A DNA stretch of 53,286 bases from a virus. Below the pieces are notes generated by a model. That model had not been told where the DNA came from, searched no databases, and worked only from the letters and a program-made list of their open reading frames with translations. The translations under genes were made by a program, and so were the position numbers. Below are positions 7,500-52,931 of the stretch, piece after piece. The DNA is taken from the IMG/VR virus record IMGVR_UViG_3300009159_000088, positions 1 through 53,286 of that record; one strand, written 5' to 3'. Within the stretch, counting starts at the first letter, position 1. Every line of letters starts with the position of its first letter.

Positions 7500-7507
7500 T
7501 ATAAATA
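7500..7507 (+). promoter_or_regulatory. T4-type late promoter box upstream of the curli operon
   Basis: TATAAATA with a predicted start near 7513. It is the only late box between 7389 and the operon beginning at 7573, and should drive the curli/cyclase genes. A terminator-like hairpin lies between the start and the first gene, so read-through or antitermination would be needed. Confidence 0.7.
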
Positions 7508-7516
7508 GCAATACTG

Positions 7517-7557
7517 AATGCTACCTTATCTTTATTGATGGGGTAGCATTTTTATTT
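7517..7557 (+). terminator. Rho-independent terminator
   Basis: AATGCTACC (7517-7525) pairs with GGTAGCATT (7542-7550), giving 9 bp with a 16-base loop, followed by TTTTTATTT. It would end the transcript from the 7407 promoter. The late promoter box lies just upstream of it. Confidence 0.8.
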
Positions 7558-7572
7558 ACAACTCTTATTACC

Positions 7573-7836
7573 ATGGCAACAAATAATTCTATAGACCCCT
7601 TTGACTTTGGTTTCACTACTATCGCCGAAGATGAACTTGACGTAACAAAGCAAGTAGACGTAGCCGAGAAGGCTGCTGCGCATCATGAAGACAGATTGAA
7701 TCGGTTATACCAATCAATCCTTCCGCTTCTCCAGAATCTCAAAAAGAACCCTGAGAAGGAATACATTAAATGGCCGAACAGGGTTAAGAAGATTGAGGAG
7801 TTTGAAGCTAATATTTCCAAGATTGTAAACGGATAA
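7573..7836 (+). CDS. Conserved T4-like hypothetical protein, 87 aa
   Basis: An 87-residue acidic, helical protein beginning MATNNSIDPFDFGFTTIAEDE. The DPFDFGF.....DE start and the KWPNRVKKIEEFE end are familiar from small proteins of marine T4-like phages. The function is not known to me. Its stop overlaps the next start (TAATGA), so it is the first gene of the packed operon leading to the curli and cyclase genes. Confidence 0.7.
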   Translation: MATNNSIDPFDFGFTTIAEDELDVTKQVDVAEKAAAHHEDRLNRLYQSILPLLQNLKKNPEKEYIKWPNRVKKIEEFEANISKIVNG

Positions 7837-8120
7837 TGAGTTTCGAAACACTTAAATCTCTTGCGGACCTTGGCTTCTCTGTTGCAGCAGTTATTGCTGG
7901 CGGAGTCTTCATTGTAATTCTCCTCAAGTATATCCTTGCGGGAGTGGTTGACGATGTAAAATCTTTGAATGGTCTTGCCGGCATGTTAAACAACCGTGTG
8001 CGTACAATGAATAATGACCTTATTCGGATTGATGCGCTCATCTCATCACGGTTCGGATTACGTGTCGATCTTGAACGTCTGGCGCGCAGCGATGGTAAGA
8101 CGGATGCCAGAAAGGATTAA
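7836..8120 (+). CDS. Single-span membrane protein, 94 aa
   Basis: A 94-residue protein with one strong membrane segment (about residues 13-37, FSVAAVIAGGVFIVILLKYILAG in outline), then an amphipathic helix containing RVRTMNNDLIRIDALI. It resembles the next protein in layout: one membrane span, then an R-R/T-M-NDLIR motif, suggesting a duplication. Small one-span proteins of this kind are sometimes called holin-like (UviB/BhlA type), but its place in front of csgF leaves a role in the curli system open. Confidence 0.65.
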   Translation: MSFETLKSLADLGFSVAAVIAGGVFIVILLKYILAGVVDDVKSLNGLAGMLNNRVRTMNNDLIRIDALISSRFGLRVDLERLARSDGKTDARKD

Positions 8121-8122
8121 TT

Positions 8123-8437
8123 ATGGATCCTATTGAACTAAAACAGATGATCAACCAGTACGGTATGCCAATGATGGCTGCCGCTGGTATGGGCTACTTT
8201 ATTTACTTTGTTTGGAAATTTGTGACGGAGAACATTAATTCTGAGCTGTCGGAAGCGAAGAAAACTATGATTGCGCTGATTGACCGAATTCGTATGCTTG
8301 ATAATGATTTAATTAGACTAGAACAAAAAATTAATACAGCTATCGAAATGCAACGCGGGGGTCCACATATTGTGCCACCCGCACCAATCACCAATGAAAA
8401 ACCTGCTCCTACTTCTAATACTCAGCTTCCTCAGTAA
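8123..8437 (+). CDS. Single-span membrane protein, 104 aa, paralogue of the previous one
   Basis: A 104-residue protein with a membrane segment near residues 15-33 (PMMAAAGMGYFIYFVWKF), then an amphipathic helix with LIDRIRMLDNDLIRLEQKI, and a Pro/Thr-rich tail. The LIDRIRMLDNDLIRL motif recurs in phage proteins with this layout. It begins 2 bases after the previous stop, and its 3' end overlaps csgF by 44 bases. A holin-like role is possible but unproven. Confidence 0.65.
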   Translation: MDPIELKQMINQYGMPMMAAAGMGYFIYFVWKFVTENINSELSEAKKTMIALIDRIRMLDNDLIRLEQKINTAIEMQRGGPHIVPPAPITNEKPAPTSNTQLPQ

Positions 8438-8849
8438 GGCTGTTGCATCTGATATGGTGCATGGTTTTAAGTCTCCAATGTTTAACGGCATTGGTTTTTC
8501 TTCACATGAAATCACCATTGAGAACCTTGCAAGAACCCGAAAGCAATCAATCAAAGATCAAGCGAAAGCGGATGCTGAAACTGCGAAAGTTACAGCGCAG
8601 AATACCCCGCTTAACGCATTTATCAATAACCTACAGGCTCGAATCTATTCTCAACTAGCATCTCAGGTCACGGATGCCATTTTTAACTCGGATGGAGCAA
8701 ACTTTGGCATTATTAATCTTCAAGGCGGATCAACGGTGACATGGCAAAAGAATGGCGATATGGTGACTCTTTACATTGTTGATCCTGCAACCGGAAATAC
8801 TACAACCATTCAAGTTCCTGTGGGAACATTGAAACCCGGCGGCGGCTGA
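8394..8849 (+). CDS. csgF: Curli assembly factor CsgF homologue
   Basis: This 151-residue protein has a signal peptide (MKNLLLLLILSFLSKAVAS) and then the CsgF pattern: an N-terminal F.SPMF.G.GF segment, equivalent to the F.NPNFGGNP region that inserts into CsgG, and a C-terminal half containing QARIYSQLASQVTDAIF and GDMVTLYIVDPATGNTTTIQV, matching the YIVDI..R.G...L.V.D..TG.T.TIQV region of E. coli CsgF (138 aa). CsgF forms a second constriction on the CsgG channel and couples export to nucleation. I chose the ATG at 8394 because it gives the signal peptide; it overlaps the upstream gene by 44 bases. Confidence 0.9.
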   Translation: MKNLLLLLILSFLSKAVASDMVHGFKSPMFNGIGFSSHEITIENLARTRKQSIKDQAKADAETAKVTAQNTPLNAFINNLQARIYSQLASQVTDAIFNSDGANFGIINLQGGSTVTWQKNGDMVTLYIVDPATGNTTTIQVPVGTLKPGGG

Positions 8850-8852
8850 TCG

Positions 8853-9668
8853 ATGGTGAAATTCATTTCCATACTCTTACTATCTTTGTTGTTCGGGGGT
8901 TGCGCTTCGGTTCCATCTAAGCCCGCCATCCTCGAGACCCCGAAGGTACAGATGTCCCCGATGGCAAAACAACTATTGGAACTTCCTCCAATTGATGGTC
9001 CTCGGATGACAATTGCGGTCTATGGCTTTGCTGATAAAACGGGACAGAGAAAGACTGCTGATGCCTATGCCACATTCTCTTCTGCCGTCACGCAGGGTGC
9101 AGAAAGCTGGCTCATTGATGCATTACGCCTTGCAGGAAATGGTGTATGGTTCCAGGTACTTGAACGTGCGAGCCTTGACGACATTATTAAGGAACGCCAA
9201 CTTATTTCCCAGACAAGAGAAACTTTCCTCGGTAAAGACGCCGAGAAACTCACCCCGATGTTATTTGCCGGCGTTATTGCGCAGGGCGGTATTATCGGAT
9301 ATGATAGCAATATCCTTACGGGAGGCGCTGGTGCCAGTATTCTTGGTATCTCCAGCAGTACTCAATATCGTAAAGACGTAGTAACAGTGTCGCTGAGACT
9401 CGTAAGCGTTCAAACAGGAGAGGTCCTCTTGAGTGTGGCTGTTACTAAAACCATTACGAGTATTGCCCTCTCGGGCAATCTATTTAAATTTTATGATCAC
9501 GGAACAACCCCGATTGAGTCAGAACTTGGTCTCACTGCAAATGAACCCAACGGCATCGCCGTACGGAGCGCTATTGATCAGGCAGTCATCGAAATCGTAA
9601 AACAGGGGCAAACAGCAGGTCTTTGGCAATTCAAAGACATAACCAACAATAACGCTAAAAAGAAATGA
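8853..9668 (+). CDS. csgG: Curli secretion channel lipoprotein CsgG
   Basis: This 271-residue protein is the outer-membrane export channel of the curli (type VIII) system, a nonameric lipoprotein pore. It has a lipobox (LLFGGC, Cys about 17) and the full CsgG domain: IAVYGFADKTGQRK, FSSAVTQGAESWLIDAL, WFQVLERASLDDIIKERQ, GIIGYDSNILTGGAGA, VSLRLVSVQTGEVLLSV and a C-terminal LFKFYDH.....E.G.T.NEP segment, all aligning with E. coli CsgG (277 aa). The length is full, so it is likely functional. It starts 3 bases after csgF and overlaps the curlin-like gene by 4. Confidence 0.95.
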   Translation: MVKFISILLLSLLFGGCASVPSKPAILETPKVQMSPMAKQLLELPPIDGPRMTIAVYGFADKTGQRKTADAYATFSSAVTQGAESWLIDALRLAGNGVWFQVLERASLDDIIKERQLISQTRETFLGKDAEKLTPMLFAGVIAQGGIIGYDSNILTGGAGASILGISSSTQYRKDVVTVSLRLVSVQTGEVLLSVAVTKTITSIALSGNLFKFYDHGTTPIESELGLTANEPNGIAVRSAIDQAVIEIVKQGQTAGLWQFKDITNNNAKKK

Positions 9669-10465
9669 AAACAAAACTAAAACTAGGATTCATTCTTGGG
9701 CTTATGCTATTAACTCCAGCCTTTGCCCAGAATCAGATATATGTGAATCAAATCACAACCGCGGGTTCCACAACCCTAATTCAGGTCGGCAGCCTGAATC
9801 GAATCGGCTCCTCTGGAGTTGCAAGTAACATCACCGGCGATAACATCACCTTTGAAACTCGCCAGATGGGAGATAGCAACAGTACTGACTTCTCTATTAT
9901 CGGAGCCAACAATCTGAGCTTGCTCGCTGTTGCCACGGGTAATACGAACACTCAGAAATACTTCATGAATGGTGGCAGCAATACATTCAATGTGTCGTTG
10001 GTCGGAAACACAAATTCGCTCACAGTGAATAAGGATGTCTCCGTCGATCACACCTCTGATACCGATACATCAAAGGCGACCATTGCGAACAGCGATGTCA
10101 CCATTGATGTAGTTGGTAGTTCAAACACGATGAAATTCGGATTTGAGAATGCTTCGTACAACTGGGTTGATTATAACATTACCGGTAGTTCGAATGTCAT
10201 AAAATCAACTCAGATCGGAAGCGTTGGTGCATCAACTCAGAGAGGCGGACATTATCAAGATGTTACCATCCTGGGTAGCACGAATAACCTCACCGTCTAT
10301 CAGGCTGGAATAGAACAGCAGAAGCTCGTCTATAATTTAACTGGTAGTAATAATACCGTTCAGATTATCCAGACCACAACGGCTGCTGCTCCTATTATGA
10401 CTACGGGTACATCGAACTACGGCGCCGCAAATCCAACTGCGACTATCTCGCCTCCGACTCCCTAA
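9665..10465 (+). CDS. Curlin-repeat (CsgA/CsgB-like) secreted protein
   Basis: A 266-residue protein with a signal peptide (MKTKLKLGFILGLMLLTPAFA) and about ten G-x-x-N turns (GSLN, GDSN, GANN, GNTN, GGSN, GNTN, GSSN, GSSN, GSTN, GSNN). They are often flanked by V/I-x-x strands and Q residues, as in curlin repeats, where each unit forms a strand-turn-strand rung of the amyloid. The repeats are less regular than in E. coli CsgA, and the last 25 residues are a Thr/Pro/Ala tail. Its place directly after csgG makes it the probable export substrate. Amyloid formation is inferred. Confidence 0.8.
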   Translation: MKTKLKLGFILGLMLLTPAFAQNQIYVNQITTAGSTTLIQVGSLNRIGSSGVASNITGDNITFETRQMGDSNSTDFSIIGANNLSLLAVATGNTNTQKYFMNGGSNTFNVSLVGNTNSLTVNKDVSVDHTSDTDTSKATIANSDVTIDVVGSSNTMKFGFENASYNWVDYNITGSSNVIKSTQIGSVGASTQRGGHYQDVTILGSTNNLTVYQAGIEQQKLVYNLTGSNNTVQIIQTTTAAAPIMTTGTSNYGAANPTATISPPTP

Positions 10466-10468
10466 TGT

Positions 10469-11623
10469 ATGCGCATAGCCGCAGCACTGTTTTTGTTTGC
10501 GGTTATTTTTATATCTGAAGCCAGTGCCTCGGTCGGGAAACTGACCGAGGTTACTGGTCCCACTCAGATTGTTCGTGGAAAGGATAAGTTAGAAGGTAAA
10601 ATTGGTACAGAGATAGAGCAGGATGATACCATCGAGACACTAAAGGCTCGGGTATCCATTAAATTCGAGGATCATACAGTAATGCAGATCACTGAGTTCT
10701 CGAAGCTCAAGATCGATGAATTTGTGTATGATCCTGCAAGTGGTAAGGGTAAGGTCGGAATGAAAACGGCATTCGGTACCGTTCGTTATGCTTCGGGTAT
10801 TATTGCAAAGAACAGCAGAGAAAACATTAAGGTCCAAACTCCTACCGCAAAGATTTCTGTTCGTGGTACGGATTTTTCAATGACCGTCTCCGAGGATGGT
10901 AAGAGTCTCATCATTCTATTACCTTCACGCCCCGAGTATAGCGCAACTCCTGGAACCGTGGGAGTCATCGAGGTGTCGAATGTAGCAGGAAGTGTCCTTA
11001 TGACTCAGGCATATCAGGCGACCTTTATCGCGTCAATGCAGTCCGCTCCTACAAATCCCGTCATACTTAACTTTCAAGATGAAAGCAAAATCAATAACTT
11101 GATTCTTGTTGAGACTCCGAAGCCCGTCACAAGTGCGGTAAAGGAAGCCAAGAAACAGACACAGGCAAACACATCCGAATCGGTAGATGATAAACCAAAC
11201 AAAAAATCAAGCGGCAAGAGTGATTCCTCTACTGCGGTTGCTCAGGTTGAACCTAGTACGTCTACTCAAGTTAAGGCTGAAGAAAAGCCTGTAGAAGAAA
11301 CTAAAACCGCCATCATCGATGTAAAGGCAATGCAGCCAGAAATACTGCAAGCCGTAGCAGAGGTCATCTCCAAGAATCCAGAGGTCACTATTGCAACATC
11401 GGTAAATATATCACCCACCTTGATTGTTACGGCAACGGTCAATAATGGGTTTACAACCGACGGTACAAACGCTATAATGAATCTTTCGACATCCAAAGGT
11501 ACAATTCAATACAAATTAAAAGCCGACACAAGTGCAACATTTAAGATTACCGACTCCAATGGAACCACGGTATACCCACTCAACTTCGGAGACAAACTCA
11601 AGGTAAACATCATTCAGAAATGA
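10469..11623 (+). CDS. Secreted FecR-domain protein
   Basis: A 384-residue protein with a signal peptide (about 1-20) and a FecR-type domain at about 22-140: G....VTGPTQIVRGKDK, IEQDDTIETLKARVSIKFEDHT, FGTVRYASG and VQTPTAKISVRGTDFSM. Residues 215-280 are a Lys/Glu/Ser/Thr-rich linker, and residues 285-384 a separate beta-rich domain. Periplasmic FecR domains typically transmit signals or bind envelope ligands. It starts 3 bases after the curlin-like gene and overlaps the cyclase gene by 4 bases (ATGA), so it may sense export or envelope state for the cyclase; that link is inference. Confidence 0.85.
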   Translation: MRIAAALFLFAVIFISEASASVGKLTEVTGPTQIVRGKDKLEGKIGTEIEQDDTIETLKARVSIKFEDHTVMQITEFSKLKIDEFVYDPASGKGKVGMKTAFGTVRYASGIIAKNSRENIKVQTPTAKISVRGTDFSMTVSEDGKSLIILLPSRPEYSATPGTVGVIEVSNVAGSVLMTQAYQATFIASMQSAPTNPVILNFQDESKINNLILVETPKPVTSAVKEAKKQTQANTSESVDDKPNKKSSGKSDSSTAVAQVEPSTSTQVKAEEKPVEETKTAIIDVKAMQPEILQAVAEVISKNPEVTIATSVNISPTLIVTATVNNGFTTDGTNAIMNLSTSKGTIQYKLKADTSATFKITDSNGTTVYPLNFGDKLKVNIIQK

Positions 11624-13659
11624 ACAAACACACACTCAGAATTCTTCTTGTTGGTCTTATGCTTCTCACGGTTGCCGTGAGTCTCCGCATTGCAAATCCG
11701 TATCCTATTGAGGTAATGCGTCTCAAAGGTCTGGATTATTACCAACGGAAGCAGGACAAGGTAGCGTCCGACAGTATTGTGATTGTGGAGATTGACGAGA
11801 AGGCGCTTGAAAAGAATGGACAGTGGCCATGGAAGCGTACGGAACTTGCAGGCGCAATAAGAAAAGCCATGGAGTCTGGAGCAACCGGTGTTGTATTACC
11901 CATTATTTTTGCTGAGCCTGACCGTCTTGGCGGCGATAAAGAATTCATCGAGATACTGAGTCAGTTTCCCGTTATTACAGGCCAATCAGCTTCACTAAAG
12001 GGTAAGGGCATTCCGATTCCACGCGGAGTTGCCACAATTGGTGGTAATACGGATGATTGGTTATTTGACTACCCTGCGGCAATCGGACCACTCAAAGAGA
12101 TTGGTGAGGCTTCCACGGGCGTGGGTATGTTGTTGACGGCTCCAGAGCTTGATGGCGTGGTGCGTAGATTGCCGCTCATGATTCAGATTGAAAAAGAAAA
12201 GTATCCCACAATGCCACTGGAAATCCTTCGGGTATTCGGCAACCAACCCAGCTTCCAGATCAAGGTTACAGAATCTGGTGTTTCTGCCATTCGGGTTCCG
12301 GGCACTCCTCCAATTAAGACTGATGGCAATGGGCGCGTGTGGATCAATTTTAAATATACCTTCAAGTCAGTTCCGTATACCGATGATGAATGGCACGTAA
12401 AGGATAAGATTGTAGTGATTGCCCTTACGGCTGAAGGTCTTGCAAATACCGTGGCAACTCCATTGGGTACGGCGTACGGACACGAATTCAGCCTTCAGAC
12501 TCTTCAGATGCTTCTTGATGGTAACCGACTTGAACGCCCAGCCGAGTTTGATCTATATGAAATCGCAATCGGTGTCGGTGCAGCGCTCATTCTGATTGGA
12601 GCGATCTCATTTTTGGGATATGCCTTGAATCTTGGTGTGTATCTTATTGCGGTATGTCTTCCCGTTTATTACGGCTTTCATTTATTCGATAAAGGTCTCC
12701 TTGCCGACTATACTTGGATTGTGGGTACAGCATCGGTAGTCTGGGCTGGTTCTCTCTTCATGCGATTCATCATGGAGTTTAAACTGAAACAGCAAATCAA
12801 GAAACAGTTTGGCACGTACCTATCTCCCGCCATGGTTGAGAAACTCCAAAAGAATCCTGACCTCCTCCAACTGGGCGGTGAGTCAAGAGAACTCTCCATT
12901 ATGTTTACCGATGTTCGTGGATTCACCGCAATCTCCGAACACTACGGCAAGGATGTTCAGGGTCTCACGAAAATTATGAATCGGTACATGACGGCAATGA
13001 CGCAAGCCATTCTGGACAACCAAGGGACGCTGGATAAGTACATTGGTGATGCTCAGATGGCTTTTTGGAACGCACCACTCGATGACAAGGATCATGCTCT
13101 ACACGCAGTTGAAACGGGTCTAACGATGCTGGGAAGTCTCAAGGCATTCAACGATGAGGTCACCAAGGAAGGTATCCCTGCATTCGGAATGGGTCTTGGC
13201 GTAAATACGGGTACCGTTGTTGTGGGTAATATGGGATCGACTCAACGGTTCGATTATACCTGCCTCGGAGATTCGGTGAACCTTGCCTCTCGTCTTGAGG
13301 GTCAGTCTAAACCCTACGGAGTCAAATTTGTAATTGGTCCCATCACCCGAGAATATGTGAAGGACGTATATCCCACGTTGGAACTGGATTGCATTGCGGT
13401 AAAGGGTAAGAAAGAAGGTGTGAAGATTTACACCGTATTCAACAGAGGTACACGCGTCTATTCAGATTCCCACAACAATTTTCTTGATTTCTACCGTAAT
13501 AGAGAATGGACCAAGGCACGTGTATTAGCCGTTGATTTAAAATCACATATGACTTTTCTAAGTGATTACTACGACATGATGGTAGAACGTATAGATGACC
13601 TTGAAAAAGCCGATCCTGGACCGCTCTGGGATGGTGTTTTCCGTGCAACTTCTAAGTGA
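11620..13659 (+). CDS. CHASE2-domain transmembrane adenylyl cyclase (class III)
   Basis: This 679-residue protein should make cAMP from ATP. Order of domains: N-terminal membrane segment (5-25), extracytoplasmic CHASE2 sensor (about 30-310), three membrane segments (about 315-395), cytoplasmic cyclase domain (about 420-600). The catalytic residues are present: metal-binding D431 in MFTDVRGFT and D477 in KYIGDAQMAFW, adenine-selecting K473 and D545/T547 (RFDYTCLGD), and transition-state N554 and R558 in VNLASR. An intact active site and a Lys/Asp specificity pair favour adenylyl over guanylyl cyclase. It is the last gene of the curli operon. A complete cyclase of this type is rare in a phage. 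Confidence 0.93.
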   Translation: MNKHTLRILLVGLMLLTVAVSLRIANPYPIEVMRLKGLDYYQRKQDKVASDSIVIVEIDEKALEKNGQWPWKRTELAGAIRKAMESGATGVVLPIIFAEPDRLGGDKEFIEILSQFPVITGQSASLKGKGIPIPRGVATIGGNTDDWLFDYPAAIGPLKEIGEASTGVGMLLTAPELDGVVRRLPLMIQIEKEKYPTMPLEILRVFGNQPSFQIKVTESGVSAIRVPGTPPIKTDGNGRVWINFKYTFKSVPYTDDEWHVKDKIVVIALTAEGLANTVATPLGTAYGHEFSLQTLQMLLDGNRLERPAEFDLYEIAIGVGAALILIGAISFLGYALNLGVYLIAVCLPVYYGFHLFDKGLLADYTWIVGTASVVWAGSLFMRFIMEFKLKQQIKKQFGTYLSPAMVEKLQKNPDLLQLGGESRELSIMFTDVRGFTAISEHYGKDVQGLTKIMNRYMTAMTQAILDNQGTLDKYIGDAQMAFWNAPLDDKDHALHAVETGLTMLGSLKAFNDEVTKEGIPAFGMGLGVNTGTVVVGNMGSTQRFDYTCLGDSVNLASRLEGQSKPYGVKFVIGPITREYVKDVYPTLELDCIAVKGKKEGVKIYTVFNRGTRVYSDSHNNFLDFYRNREWTKARVLAVDLKSHMTFLSDYYDMMVERIDDLEKADPGPLWDGVFRATSK

Positions 13660-14144: not shown

Positions 14145-14582
14145 ATGAAAGTCAAACATATCCTCGCAATCCTGGCTATTACCGCTACCGTTTCGGCTCA
14201 AAATGTTGACCGCTTGATTGAAGCCCTGGTGCGTACCGAAAGCAACGGCAACGCTGCTGCCATCGGCGACCGCGGTAAAGCCCTTGGAATCCTTCAGATT
14301 CATGATGTGATGGTCAAGGACTTTAACCGTATCACCGGTAAGAATTACAGACATGCCGACATGTTCGACGAAATTACCTCTCGGGAGGTCGCCAGAGGCG
14401 TTCTGAATTTCTACTCAAAACACATTGAAAAAACCATGAACCGTAAAGCCACCGAAAAAGAGCTTGGTTTTATTTGGAACGGTGGCGGTAGTTCTTGGCG
14501 CCGTGTGGCGGCTCCGATTTCGGACACCAAGCAAAAGAATCTGGAAGCCTATTGGGCCAAGGTCTACAAAAACCTAAAGTAA
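14145..14582 (+). CDS. Exported lysozyme-like transglycosylase
   Basis: A 145-residue protein with a signal peptide (MKVKHILAILAITATVSA) followed by a compact SLT/lysozyme-like domain. The probable catalytic glutamate is E32 in ALVRTESNGN, and the GDRGKALGILQI motif (41-52) matches the substrate-groove pattern of lytic transglycosylases. It should cleave peptidoglycan glycan strands in the periplasm. It could be the phage endolysin, exported by the Sec system, or an early wall-modifying enzyme; the early-type promoter is odd for an endolysin. Confidence 0.8.
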   Translation: MKVKHILAILAITATVSAQNVDRLIEALVRTESNGNAAAIGDRGKALGILQIHDVMVKDFNRITGKNYRHADMFDEITSREVARGVLNFYSKHIEKTMNRKATEKELGFIWNGGGSSWRRVAAPISDTKQKNLEAYWAKVYKNLK

Positions 14583-45320: not shown

Positions 45321-48044
45321 ATGCCTACCGAAGTCGAACGTACAGATACATTTGAAACATGGCGCCAAAAGAGTAATGCCATTTCTGCTGACCTTGGCAC
45401 GACTGCCCAGTTGCCTTCCGACCTGGTCCTGAAAACGATCACCCTTGCTGAAACTGGTAACTACACAGCAACTCAAACCGTTACAGGTTCACATTCCGGA
45501 TCGACTGCGACCGTTGTTTCGATTGATGGTACTGTTCTTACAGTTAAAAATGTATCGGGTAATTTCATTGATCGAAGCGTTCAAAAATCAACTCTAATAA
45601 TCGAGCTTTCGGGTTCTTCCAGTGTATACACTCCCGTTGCATTGGGTGTTGGTGGCCTTATTACGGGTACTGATTCATCTGGTACAAGCGGCAATGGCGC
45701 ATCCGGAGCAACAGCAAAGGTATTTTCGTGTACCGTTGTTACAGGTACCTTTATTAAATTAGTTGTATATGATATTACTGGATCGTTTAAACCAGGAACG
45801 GATTACATCAGTCAAGGGTCGACTAGATTTCTTTTAAAACAAATTGTTTTAAATGATGCATCCGATAATGGAGAAAATATTGTTCAATCGGTGAGTGTTT
45901 CAAAAGAAATTGTTCGTTTTAATCATGATGTAATTACTGCATTGAGCGAGATTAAGGACGGAGACACAACATTTAATGGCATTAAAACATTTGCCGATGA
46001 TGCAATTTTTCAGGATAATGTTACGATCAATGATAATCTTACCGTTGATACAAATACATTGTTTGTTGATTCGACAAATAATAGAGTTGGTATTGGAACA
46101 CTTACTCCCACAAAAACTCTTCATGTTCAAGGAACTCTAAGAGTAACCGGCGATGTTACATTTGATACTCCTATTCCACTTGATACCCAAACAAGCGGAA
46201 ATTATGTGGCAACTGTTACTGCTGGAGGCGGTATTTCAGTATCAGGATCTGGAACAGAAACTGCAGCAGTAACTGTTGAGCATTCTGATACATCTTCTGT
46301 TGCAAATTTAACTGCGGTGAGTCGCACTTACGTTACGGCTCTTGGTTTTGATACCTACGGACACGTTATTAATTATTCGACTGGAACAGAAACAACACCG
46401 TTGCAAGGCGTCCAGGGTATCCAGGGTATCCAAGGCACACAAGGTACTACTGGTACCGGAACTCAAGGCGTCCAAGGTGTTCAAGGTACAGTTGGTTCTC
46501 AGGGTATCCAAGGTATTCAAGGTGCATCGGGAAGCGGCGGAGCAGGCAGCGGAGCTCAAGGCATCCAAGGTATTCAAGGCATCCAAGGCACACAAGGTAC
46601 TACTGGTACCGGAACTCAAGGCATCCAAGGTACACTTGGTTCTCAGGGTATTCAAGGTTCTACTGGCGCTGGAACTCAGGGTACTCAAGGTATTCAAGGT
46701 ATTCAAGGGCAAATAGGACCCGGCGGCGGAGCTCAAGGTACTCAAGGTACACAAGGTGAACAAGGTATTCAAGGGAATACCGGAACTCAAGGTACTACTG
46801 GTGCCGGAACTCAAGGTGCTACTGGTACCGGAACTCAAGGTACTCAAGGTGCATCGGGAACCGGTAGCGGAGGAAGCGGTGCTCAAGGCGCTCAAGGCGT
46901 ACAGGGTATCCAGGGTATTCAAGGTATTACTGGTGCTCAAGGTATTCAAGGTATTACTGGTGCTCAAGGTATTCAAGGTGGTTTTGCAAATCTTACGGGC
47001 TTTATTGAATCCGCCACCGGAGCAGTTTCTACGCTTTCAGCTAATGGTAGACCGGTTCTTACAAACTTGGTCGCACCGGGAGATATGAATACTCTTGCGG
47101 GTACATTTAATATTTTTGCGGCAGGTTCCGGAAATGGTCATCTTGCATATTCGGTTTTATCGCAACCTGCAATAGGGAATGGAGCAGTGACTGGTACCGG
47201 TAATGGTAGTGGATCTGCGCTAACATTTCATAGCAATCAGGTAACCGGAAGTCCACAAAGAGTCTGGGGAACAACTAACGGCTCGCATTTCGAACTTTAC
47301 GAACCAAGCGGTATTCAAGGTACAGCAGGTGCTGATGGTAACGATGGTGCTCCTGGTGCTGATGGTAACGATGGTGCTCCTGGTGCGGATGGTCCGACTG
47401 GTCCAACTGGTGCTCCTGGTGCCGATGGTAATGATGGTGCTCCTGGCGCGGATGGTCCAACTGGTCCAACTGGTCCAACTGGTGCTCCTGGTGCCGATGG
47501 TAATGATGGTGCTCCTGGCGCGGATGGTCCAACCGGTCCAACTGGTGCTCCTGGTGCCGATGGTAATGATGGTGCTCCTGGTGCCGATGGTCCAACTGGT
47601 CCAACTGGTGCTCCTGGTTCTGATGGTCCAACTGGTCCAACTGGTGCTCCTGGCGATGCTGGTCCAACTGGTCCAACTGGTGGACCTGGTCCAACTGGTG
47701 CTCCTGGTGCCGATGGTCCAACCGGTCCAACTGGTCCAACTGGTGGACCTGGTCCAACTGGTGCTCCTGGCGATGCTGGTCCAACTGGTCCAACTGGTGC
47801 TCCTGGTTCTGATGGTCCAACTGGTCCAACTGGTGCTCCTGGTTCTGATGGTCCAACTGGTGCTCCTGGCGATGCTGGTCCAACTGGTCCAACTGGTGCT
47901 CCTGGTGCCGATGGTGGAACTGGTCCAACTGGTCCAACTGGTCCTTCTGGCGTTATAGCATTAGAAAGCATTAGTGGTTATAATTCTGGCGTCAATCAAT
48001 ATTTAAGAAATACTGCCGGCACATTTGAATGGGTAAACGAATAA
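45321..48044 (+). CDS. Collagen-like tail fibre, 907 aa
   Basis: A 907-residue fibre. The N-terminal 350 residues contain beta-modules ([20 protein letters not shown]) and a [20 protein letters not shown] segment typical of fibre attachment regions. Residues about 360-553 are G-x-Q/G-x-T triplets ([10 protein letters not shown]), residues 554-663 a globular domain, and residues 664-875 G-P-T/G-A-P/G-A-D triplets, ending in a short C-terminal domain ([19 protein letters not shown]). Long G-x-y runs form collagen-like triple helices in phage fibres. The triplets contain no Lys, so hydroxylysine-type glycosylation is not possible, but Thr in the Y position is frequent. Confidence 0.88.
46400..46980 (+). 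repeat. Collagen-like coding repeat, GIQ/GTQ type
   Basis: Degenerate tandem repeats built on GGTATTCAAGGTATCCAA-type 9-base and 18-base units, encoding G-x-Q triplets with short interruptions (GSGGAGSG). They create long spurious frames on both strands. Confidence 0.85.
47312..47945 (+). repeat. Collagen-like coding repeat, GPT/GAP type
   Basis: Tandem repeats based on GGTCCAACTGGTGCTCCT units, encoding [12 protein letters not shown] and related triplets. The low codon variation suggests recent expansion or ongoing recombination. Confidence 0.88.
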
Positions 48045-50212: not shown

Positions 50213-51387
50213 ACCGCACAACAATCATTAATTATTTAATTGCTCGCCGTCAAGCAAAATCCTATCTTGAAATAGGAATATGGAACGGAGTCAATTTTGA
50301 CAATATTGCCTGCTCAAATCGTACTGGTGTTGATCCATCATGGAGATTACCAAAACGTAAAGATATTCTGGCAATGAGCTCCGATGATTTCTTTAAACAA
50401 AATAAGGAAAAATTCGATGTTATTTTTATTGATGGGCTTCATCATGCCGATCAGGTACTAAAGGATTTAGTAAATGCAATGGATTGCTTGAATCCAGATG
50501 GATATATCGTGTGCCATGATATGAATCCTCTATCAAGAATCGCTCAGCAAATTCCATATTCCGGAAAAGGAGAATGGAATGGTGATTGTTGGAAAGCCTT
50601 CGTTGAATTCCGAAAGCTGCACGATGGTACTCATGACTTTAAAGTCATCAATACTGATCACGGTTGCGGTATTATTACTCCAAGAAAGACCGTTAAGGAA
50701 AATACTTTTGTTGTCACAGAAGAGCTTACATATGAAAACCTTGTTGCAAATCGTCAGGCTTGGTTAAATCTTATTGATTTTGAAACATGGTCGAAAGATG
50801 TTAGCTTTGATGAAATGATGAACGCTTATGTTGGCAACCCGTCGGAGCAATACAACAATTACGTATTGGCTTTGTGGTACGATCAGAATGAGCAAACTGC
50901 TTCCGCAATTTCTTATTATATTCGCGCAGCAGAGCGCAGTACGGAATTGACGCATCAGTATGAGTGTTTAATTCGAGCAGCTCTTTGTTTTCAAAGACAA
51001 GGTACTCGTGGCTTATCCGTTCGTGGTTTGCTGCAGAGAGCGATTTCGATTTTACCAAAACGTCCTGAAGCATATTTTCTTCTTGCACGTTATCATGAAA
51101 GAGAAAGTACCGTTGAAAGCTGGGTCAACTGCTACACGTATGCATCGATGGGTCTCGAAGTTTGTGATTTTCAAACTTGCCCTCCTCTGCGCACTTGGGT
51201 TGAATATCCCGGATATTACGGAATGCTTTTTGAAAAAGCTGTAAGCTCATGGTGGGTTGGTTTGTGCGAAGATTCAAAAAATATGTTTGTGAATCTTTAC
51301 AAAAACTATCAATGGATCAATGACGGTTATAGAAACTCTGTAATTAACAATCTTAAATTCATGAAGGTTAATACAGATACACTATGA
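50209..51387 (+). CDS. SAM methyltransferase fused to TPR-like repeats
   Basis: A 392-residue protein. Residues about 15-150 are a class I SAM-dependent methyltransferase (YLEIGIWNGVNFDNIA with the glycine loop, GVDPS, then FDVIFIDGLHHADQVLKDL and GYIVCHDMNP). The C-terminal 220 residues are helical TPR-like repeats (NNYVLALWYDQNEQTASAIS, EAYFLLARYHERESTVESW). Such domains bring modifying enzymes to a protein or glycan target. A good Shine-Dalgarno sequence (GAGGAG) lies 8 bases upstream, unlike most genes here. The next gene overlaps its stop by 4 bases. Confidence 0.78.
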   Translation: MNRTTIINYLIARRQAKSYLEIGIWNGVNFDNIACSNRTGVDPSWRLPKRKDILAMSSDDFFKQNKEKFDVIFIDGLHHADQVLKDLVNAMDCLNPDGYIVCHDMNPLSRIAQQIPYSGKGEWNGDCWKAFVEFRKLHDGTHDFKVINTDHGCGIITPRKTVKENTFVVTEELTYENLVANRQAWLNLIDFETWSKDVSFDEMMNAYVGNPSEQYNNYVLALWYDQNEQTASAISYYIRAAERSTELTHQYECLIRAALCFQRQGTRGLSVRGLLQRAISILPKRPEAYFLLARYHERESTVESWVNCYTYASMGLEVCDFQTCPPLRTWVEYPGYYGMLFEKAVSSWWVGLCEDSKNMFVNLYKNYQWINDGYRNSVINNLKFMKVNTDTL

Positions 51388-52931
51388 GTAAATTAGAAAA
51401 TTTCCCAGAAGTATATTGGCTAACACTATCAGATCAACCGGATCGTCATAAATGTATTGAACAGCAATTCCAAAAGTATGGTATTGAAAAACATACAAGA
51501 TTTAATGGGTATGACGGACGCATTTTAGATTACCGCACTCAACCGGATATTGTAACCGGTAGTTATTTTAACATTATTAAATCAACCGATATTGCCTGCG
51601 CAATGGGGCATCTGTCGATGATTAAACAGTGGTATGATAATTCGACGAGCGAGGTTGCTATGTTTTTGGAAGATGATGTGAATCTTGAAAACTGCGAAAA
51701 CTGGAGTTTTACATGGTCTGAATTTTTTAATGCGCTTCCTTCTGATTGGAAAAATGTTCAGCTGGCACAGATTCGTTCGGATGAAATTAGTGATATTGGT
51801 TTTCGCCCTCGGATTCCGTCGGATTGGTGCGTCACAGCATATATTCTAAAGCGGTCATACGCCAAAGAATTAATCGACGATTATTTCGTTGATGGAAAAT
51901 TTCGTTTAATCGTCCAAAAGGATAAACTATCACAGCCTATTGTTGAAAATCTTATCTACTTTCCAGCCGAGCCAAAATCATACAGTATTCCTCTTTTTAC
52001 AGAAAAGAACATTTTCTCTTCAACGTTTTACAGTAACGACAAAAAGAAAGTAAAAGAGTACAATGCTCTTTCGGAAAAGTATGTTACAACTTGGTGGCAA
52101 CAAAATGGAGCTAAATCAAGCCTTACGTCTATTATGACCAAGCCGGCTCCAATTCCAATGATTCCGATGATTGGAACTGCGGTTGTTACAAATACAAAAT
52201 GGGTAAAGCGTCTTGTCGAAAGCGTTGATTTCCCGGTAAAAGAATTTTGCATTATCAATAACAACGGCAGAGGAGAAATTGATGCTGAATTGGATGCTAT
52301 TGCGCAAACACCACACACCTTTATTCGCAAAATAAAGGTCGTTCATATGCCATCTAATCTTGGAGTTCCGGGTTCCTGGAATTTAATGATTAAATCGTAT
52401 ATGAAGGCGCCTTACTGGATCATTGTGAATGACGATGTCGCCTTTGGCGAAGGGTTCTTAGCCGAGATGCATTGCATGACAATGCGCGATCCATCATTTG
52501 GAATAATCCACGGATTTCAAGGAGACCATAATGTTGGAAGCTGGGATTTGTTTTTACTACGCGATCATGTAGTGGCTGATTATGGTCTTTTCGATGAAAA
52601 CCTTTATCCAGCATACAACGAGGATTCCGATTATTTTCTAAGGTTCGTGCATAAACCCATTCGGAAAGTAATGAATCTTAATACCGACTATTATCACGGA
52701 GATGGTAAGAAAAACGAATACCACACTCACGGGCGTCAAACCTCTAAAAGCGATCCAATTTTAAGAAAAAAGTTGGAAGAGGTGAATCTAATGAATATCG
52801 ACTATTTAACGCATAAATGGGGTAGAACCTGGAGGTGGTGCGCTCCTACTGAATTGCCGTTTAATGACAAGCCGATTGGGTATACAACATATGATCTAAG
52901 ATTTGTCAGACAAAAGCATTTAGGCTTCTAA
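51384..52931 (+). CDS. Bifunctional glycosyltransferase, GT25 plus GT2
   Basis: A 515-residue protein with two catalytic domains. Residues 1-200 are GT25-like: YWLTLSDQPDRHKCIEQQFQ, YGIEKHTRFNGYDGRIL, CAMGHLSMIKQW and the acidic metal motif E96-D97-D98. Residues 260-480 are GT2-like (GT-A fold): NLGVPGSWNLMIKS, then YWIIVNDDVAFGEG with D350-D351. GT25 includes bacterial lipooligosaccharide galactosyltransferases and collagen galactosyltransferases. No signal peptide is present, so it acts in the cytoplasm. It lies between two collagen-like fibre genes, so the fibres are possible acceptors; host surface sugars are the alternative. Confidence 0.8.
   Translation: MSKLENFPEVYWLTLSDQPDRHKCIEQQFQKYGIEKHTRFNGYDGRILDYRTQPDIVTGSYFNIIKSTDIACAMGHLSMIKQWYDNSTSEVAMFLEDDVNLENCENWSFTWSEFFNALPSDWKNVQLAQIRSDEISDIGFRPRIPSDWCVTAYILKRSYAKELIDDYFVDGKFRLIVQKDKLSQPIVENLIYFPAEPKSYSIPLFTEKNIFSSTFYSNDKKKVKEYNALSEKYVTTWWQQNGAKSSLTSIMTKPAPIPMIPMIGTAVVTNTKWVKRLVESVDFPVKEFCIINNNGRGEIDAELDAIAQTPHTFIRKIKVVHMPSNLGVPGSWNLMIKSYMKAPYWIIVNDDVAFGEGFLAEMHCMTMRDPSFGIIHGFQGDHNVGSWDLFLLRDHVVADYGLFDENLYPAYNEDSDYFLRFVHKPIRKVMNLNTDYYHGDGKKNEYHTHGRQTSKSDPILRKKLEEVNLMNIDYLTHKWGRTWRWCAPTELPFNDKPIGYTTYDLRFVRQKHLGF

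Follow-up and report, generated by a model that had tools for sequence, protein, structure and literature searches.

Between positions 8394 and 13659 of the virus contig IMGVR_UViG_3300009159_000088 (exactly 53,286 bases in the IMG/VR record; this whole stretch is called the window below), a run of five adjacent genes starts with those for CsgF and CsgG, continues with genes for a secreted curlin-like protein and a secreted protein with a FecR domain, and ends with the gene for a complete CHASE2 class III cyclase. The window adds one more member to a known module, the curli (type VIII secretion) module of the pelagiphage type, which on comparison with related sequences is real, well conserved and probably functional. 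An earlier note on this DNA had described a virus-borne module of curli export and cyclase with its first gene at 8394. The module stands, but its central idea is not new, since the same gene order was already published (PMC9599517). The start of the unit is corrected: transcription probably begins farther upstream, at a late promoter, in a unit that includes two small genes, s1 and s2, which track the module.

The module was described in ocean viruses between 2013 and 2022, in phage HTVC008M, methylophage Melnitz and many ocean contigs (PMC7029224, PMC9004378, PMC9599517; what is said here of these three papers refers to the portions of their text that were available). The curli cluster was reported in 2020 (PMC7029224), and in 2022 a pinholin-like role was proposed (PMC9004378) and CsgF-CsgG-CsgA/B-FecR-[CsgA/B]-adenylate cyclase was presented as one module in two pelagiphage families, for which aggregation, defence against superinfection and import were put forward as possible roles (PMC9599517). 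Compared with the available portions of these papers, the late promoter, the s1/s2 linkage, the FecR tail, the PA14 and F5/8 type C heads and the cyclic-nucleotide-binding protein described below are apparently new, as are the rare bacterial copies, the residue conservation and the purifying selection.

Gene order and conservation

The five core genes, all on the plus strand, are as follows.

8394 to 8849, plus strand: CsgF (Pfam E = 1.7e-17), with a signal peptide followed by an FKSPMF motif
8853 to 9668, plus strand: CsgG, outer-membrane lipoprotein channel homologue (Pfam E = 2.8e-49)
9665 to 10465, plus strand: curlin-like secreted substrate with GxxN/QxGxxN repeats (orthologue profile, AlphaFold2 model)
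10469 to 11623, plus strand: secreted FecR-domain protein (Pfam FecR E = 2.2e-9)
11620 to 13659, plus strand: CHASE2 adenylyl cyclase (Pfam CHASE2 E = 8.5e-40, Guanylate_cyc E = 8.8e-19)

The earlier gene assignments were borne out by Pfam for CsgF, CsgG, FecR and CHASE2 plus Guanylate_cyc, and the 3-base gaps and 4-base overlaps between the genes agreed with the open reading frame coordinates and start contexts. Baseplate genes gp53, gp5, gp6 and gp8 within the window likewise confirmed a T4-like genome. Viral contigs were scanned twice, which yielded about 160 loci (partly overlapping on the same contigs, so that locus counts are not independent), and a large majority of the sufficiently long ones had the order csgF-csgG-substrate-fecR-cyclase. 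The arrangement is shared by most of about 140 phage loci and, far from being missing from all related phages, is present in many relatives; it is kept exactly in those with cyclases 89-96% identical to that of the window. The 4-base overlap of fecR and cyclase was the commonest spacing (67 of 124 pairs). The ratio of nonsynonymous to synonymous substitution rates in the window lineage was about 0.03-0.15 for csgF, csgG, the substrate, FecR and the cyclase, which indicates that the five core genes are under purifying selection.

When 50,697 annotated phage records were searched by tblastn, true full-length relatives of the cyclase were found only in Pelagibacter phage HTVC008M and the Melnitz methylophages. 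Both have the same order and a second substrate-like gene between fecR and cyclase; the window lineage is without the second curlin-repeat gene that other phages have there.

Late promoter and upstream genes

Five features precede csgF and probably belong to the same unit.

7500 to 7508, plus strand: T4-type late promoter TATAAATAG, a motif conserved in relatives; probable start of the transcription unit, ahead of the open reading frame at 7573
7516 to 7551, plus strand: 15-bp stem-loop directly after the promoter, where the late transcript should have its 5' end
7573 to 7836, plus strand: 87-aa protein, first gene of the unit, present only in close relatives
7836 to 8120, plus strand: s1, 94 aa, with one transmembrane segment and a coiled coil; phrog_18771, paralogue of s2
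8123 to 8437, plus strand: s2, 104 aa, with an invariant RxRMLDNDxIRL motif; phrog_18771, paralogue of s1

The promoter site in question is TATAAATA. Of 127 loci, which are not independent of one another, 51 have a late-promoter motif in the 400 bases before the unit, versus about 9 expected from the motif density in the same loci. Inspection of aligned relatives showed that the hairpin is retained though its stem sequence differs; it could instead be the terminator of the upstream gene. No Rfam family matched anywhere in the window.

Each of s1 and s2 has one hydrophobic segment and a coiled coil, the segment of s2 falling under the hydropathy cut-off used, and s1 gave a substitution rate ratio of 0.01-0.05. 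A scan of viral contigs with s2 returned 80 loci. The module was present in all 24 loci of at least 19 kb, and the 7 module-free loci were all shorter. The pair sometimes lies downstream of the module on the opposite strand, and among annotated phages s2 was found only in curli phages. In PMC9599517 a 'histidine kinase' gene upstream of the module is reported for podovirus modules and is not a required part of myovirus modules. The genes so called may be s1 and s2; as actual histidine kinases s1 and s2 were ruled out, with no kinase domain in Pfam even at E of 5.

The CsgF-CsgG channel and its substrate

The FKSPMF motif of CsgF matches the CsgG-binding N-terminus of E. coli CsgF. Residues F25 and F30 were invariant in 93 of 93 phage sequences and align with E. 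coli F26 and F31; in E. coli, point mutations of F24, F26 and F31 disrupt the CsgF-CsgG interaction (PMC10133297). PMC9004378 suggests that the CsgF of phages may have lost its pairing with CsgG; this invariance speaks against that. The CsgG profile matched the solved E. coli channel 3x2r at E = 4.4e-71 over positions 4-262 of 264, and the lipidation cysteine C17 was invariant among 97 phage sequences. With a full-length CsgG match and the docking phenylalanines of CsgF kept, nothing spoke for a CsgG/CsgF pair unable to form a channel.

A profile of 30 phage orthologues of the substrate matched a curlin-repeat protein of known structure, 8c50 (E = 1.1e-10), and gave a weak match to the major curlin of E. 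coli, 8enq (E = 1.1e-3); repeats inflate such scores. The Melnitz protein at the same position matched Pfam Curlin_rpt (E = 8.6e-6), and the AlphaFold2 model of the window protein was all-beta with strand-turn-strand units and a mean predicted local distance difference test score of 76.

In other phages, an extra gene between fecR and cyclase encodes a further protein. HTVC008M gp018 has curlin repeats and a PA14 domain, and PA14, F5/8 type C or autotransporter beta domains were found in proteins at this position in the following loci.

L002, 10540 to 11865: protein of this set between fecR and cyclase
L066, 5265 to 6548: PA14 protein
L147, 11101 to 14592: F5/8 type C protein
L125, 10921 to 12969: protein with an autotransporter beta-domain

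Domains of the PA14, F5/8 type C and autotransporter types usually serve in carbohydrate binding or surface anchoring, and their presence on the extra proteins makes an adhesive output plausible.

The FecR-domain protein and the CHASE2 cyclase

In its AlphaFold2 model the FecR protein consists of a FecR domain (residues 23-200), a disordered linker and a C-terminal five-strand beta domain ending in VNIIQK. The best PDB neighbour was the C-terminal domain of PupR (6ovk), with a Foldseek probability of 1.00 but E = 5e-3. The N-terminus is a signal-peptide-like segment followed directly by the FecR domain. This start rules out the FecR anti-sigma regulators, which are inner-membrane proteins with a cytoplasmic anti-sigma N-terminus, and a role in iron should therefore not be read from the name.

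The C-terminal pattern [IVLF]x[IVL]xQ, an alternating strand with a glutamine, occurred in 88 of 90 phage FecR proteins, and several curlin-like substrates end in much the same way (SNNISINQSN beside TSTINIRQSN, for instance). It was present in the two Caulobacteraceae copies of the module and in none of the curli-free Caulobacterales FecR proteins examined. Such a tail on curli-linked phage FecR proteins offers a lead that FecR may physically touch the curli machinery.

The window cyclase has a CHASE2 domain, transmembrane segments and the intact catalytic set D431, K473, D477, T547, N554 and R558; its K/T pair is of the adenine type, and we take T547 to indicate the class IIIb type. The two metal aspartates, the adenine-binding lysine and the transition-state arginine were present in 106 of 106 distinct cyclases; the adenine-side residue was T in 95 and D in 10, and the asparagine position was N in 96 and S in 10. 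These residues are marks of a working enzyme rather than proof of one, with cyclic AMP (cAMP) as the predicted product.

Of 16 Caulobacterales genomes with matches to both FecR and a CHASE2-type cyclase, 12 had the two within about 3 kb of each other when match positions were compared. A Burkholderia operon pairs a secreted LysM-FecR protein with a histidine kinase of the CHASE2 kind, and its disruption affected biofilm (PMC5192318). Together these cases suggest that a secreted FecR protein feeding a CHASE2 sensor is a recurring arrangement, which the phage module couples to curli.

A phage cyclic-nucleotide-binding protein

A search of eight phage records for a cyclic-nucleotide-binding domain gave a match in one, a 140-kb phage, in a gene just upstream of csgF and divergent from it.

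L040, 3712 to 4350, minus strand: cyclic-nucleotide-binding membrane protein, divergent from csgF

Relatives were found at the same position in L019, L044, L047 and L055. All match PF00027, share GEGALVS..PRNA, which fits a phosphate-binding cassette, and have a C-terminal hydrophobic region and no DNA-binding domain. A viral scan for the protein returned 19 contigs. The gene adjoins csgF in 7 of them; in 3 further contigs the cyclase lies 14-16 kb to the 5' side, and the remaining contigs end short of that distance. The linkage to csgF is independent genetic support for a cyclic-nucleotide role, and such a protein in some relatives makes the signalling arm more credible than the earlier note could know.

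Copies in bacterial genomes

A genome scan returned ordinary alphaproteobacterial curli loci and three loci with the five-gene order, in a Hyphomonas sp. TMED17 metagenome-assembled genome (L172, on a 705-kb contig) and in two Caulobacteraceae metagenome-assembled genomes (L165 and L166). The order curli-FecR-CHASE2 cyclase on these Caulobacterales-type chromosomes was located as follows.

L172, 8453 to 14476: module in Hyphomonas sp. TMED17
L165, 8513 to 14533: module in Caulobacteraceae

The flanks of L172 and L165 carry bacterial metabolic and regulatory genes. These findings contradict the statement in PMC9599517 that FecR and the cyclase are not within curli operons in bacteria. Cellular copies are rare, a full-length match to the module-type FecR being found in 1 of 299 Caulobacterales genomes, the query's own. 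Loci L163, L164, L167-L171, L185 and L189 were rejected as cellular copies, because most carry s1/s2 or fall inside phage clades; they have the look of phage contigs that were placed in bacterial bins.

In both the CsgG tree and the cyclase tree, the L172, L165 and L166 copies fell inside the phage clade, beside the same phages. Nesting in two trees suggests transfer, for which the direction from phage to cell appears more likely; unsampled cellular donors could give the same tree picture.

Proposed mechanism and alternatives

The best explanation, which we put forward tentatively and at somewhat less than an even chance, is an adhesive amyloid exporter, expressed late, with a cAMP cyclase that receives information on its state. 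A single late transcript would probably be made from the T4-type promoter. The CsgG lipoprotein would build an outer-membrane channel at which CsgF docks, and curlin-like subunits would exit through CsgG to form a fibre on the infected cell, with the extra exported protein supplying a lectin-type head in related phages. The secreted FecR-domain protein would lie in the periplasm, where its curlin-like C-terminal strand could engage the channel or the fibre and its FecR domain could pass the state of either to the periplasmic CHASE2 domain, setting cAMP synthesis in the cytoplasm. In some phages, the phage-encoded membrane protein may then bind cAMP and read the signal. The phage would probably benefit from a late change of the surface, by which cells adhere, cells and progeny aggregate or competitors are kept out. 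The sequences themselves show the order of the genes, the motif of the late promoter, the homologies, the residues for catalysis and docking, the purifying selection and the linkage of the accessory genes; that expression is late, that a fibre forms, that FecR signals to CHASE2, that the product is cAMP and what the phage gains are proposed steps.

Several results weigh against it. The protein at 9665-10465 had no Pfam match even at E of 0.1, the curlin model missing it, and a structure search with its AlphaFold2 model gave no significant PDB neighbour. The FecR tail is short and statistically weak against the curlin profile (best sequence E about 0.008), so that it is suggestive only, and it is absent from the Hyphomonas copy. 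The cyclic-nucleotide-binding gene was present in only 1 of the 8 phage records searched and was not found in L011, the 140-kb close relative of the window. CsgE had no match in 11 related phage records, a wider search that agrees with its reported absence from the window; the CsgE gate belongs to E. coli-type systems and is not part of alphaproteobacterial or phage systems according to PMC9599517. The authors of the Melnitz study saw no clumping of infected cells (PMC9004378).

The alternatives account for parts of the same evidence. That the cyclase raises cAMP to reprogramme the host, with the curli part as a sensor front end only, is unlikely in our view. The conserved catalytic residues, the bacterial FecR/CHASE2 pairs without curli and the linked phage cAMP-binding membrane protein of some lineages would suit it, but this receptor is absent from most module-bearing records searched, and lectin-type heads on the exported proteins point to adhesion as the output. 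Control of lysis, with CsgG as a pinholin-like pore that times lysis and CsgF diverged from docking (PMC9004378), to which s1/s2 could add holin- or antiholin-like partners, seems less likely still. The docking phenylalanines of CsgF are invariant, s1 and s2 match no Pfam holin family, a curlin-like substrate exists, contrary to PMC9004378, where it was regarded as missing, and FecR and the cyclase are left unexplained; the late promoter, the holin-like layout of the s1/s2 tandem paralogues (N-terminal transmembrane segment, coiled coil) and a transglycosylase-like gene 0.5 kb downstream at 14145 speak in its favour.

An ungated CsgG that admits nutrients or cofactors during infection (PMC7029224, PMC9599517) is very unlikely. 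The lack of a CsgE gate in the 11 phage records is what such an uptake pore would predict, yet CsgF, the substrate and FecR are under purifying selection though needless for a simple pore, and a late promoter suits late action rather than an early nutritional one. Probable late expression would also be late for superinfection exclusion, in which competing phages would be kept off the infected cell by the fibre or pore. This role was suggested in PMC9599517 and could be achieved by the surface change that an exported fibre brings; we hold it to be as improbable as the uptake pore.

PMC9599517 describes phages with curli modules from every one of the 65 ocean stations that it examined. The anatomy of the module offers handles on its role: expression that is probably late, a FecR tail as a possible coupling of export to the cyclase, the lectin-type heads of related phages and the phage cAMP reader of some lineages. 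Two published statements are also argued against, that phage CsgF may no longer bind CsgG and that FecR and cyclase are not within bacterial curli operons. A wider claim is doubtful, namely that several phage lineages carry a complete circuit from amyloid export through the curlin-tailed FecR and the CHASE2 cyclase to a phage cAMP reader, and that phages and Caulobacterales-type cells have exchanged the module, with transfer into the cell as the probable direction. No phage pair of cAMP maker and reader of this kind was found in the literature searched.

Other genes in the window

Three further genes were noted.

14145 to 14582: transglycosylase-like (SLT) protein with a signal peptide, 0.5 kb 3' of the cyclase, kept in relatives
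45321 to 48044: 907-aa protein with collagen-like repeats, probably a tail fibre
51384 to 52931: glycosyltransferase family 25 (lipopolysaccharide-type) gene close to the right end

Comparison with known systems

With the FecR/PupR anti-sigma regulators the phage protein shares the periplasmic FecR domain. It differs in having a signal peptide in place of the inner-membrane anti-sigma part, and it is paired with a cyclase where they have a sigma factor or TonB receptor. The Caulobacterales FecR/cyclase pairs and the Burkholderia LysM-FecR/CHASE2 kinase pair resemble the phage genes in that a secreted FecR-domain protein stands beside a CHASE2 membrane sensor; in contrast to the phage module, no curli genes were seen in their short flanks and their FecR proteins are without the curlin-like tail, and in Burkholderia the output is a histidine kinase (PMC5192318). 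The E. coli csg operons have homologues of the CsgG channel and CsgF and a curlin-like substrate in common with the window, whereas on the phage side CsgE was not found, CsgD and CsgC were not seen, the substrate repeats have diverged and the operon includes FecR and the CHASE2 cyclase. The published phage modules compared are HTVC008M gp014-gp019 and Melnitz gp99-gp104. The window differs from them by an extra 87-aa first gene and by being without the second curlin-repeat gene, but the genes, their order and strand are the same, s1/s2 lie upstream there too, and identity to HTVC008M is 34-46% over csgF, csgG, the fecR domain and the cyclase.

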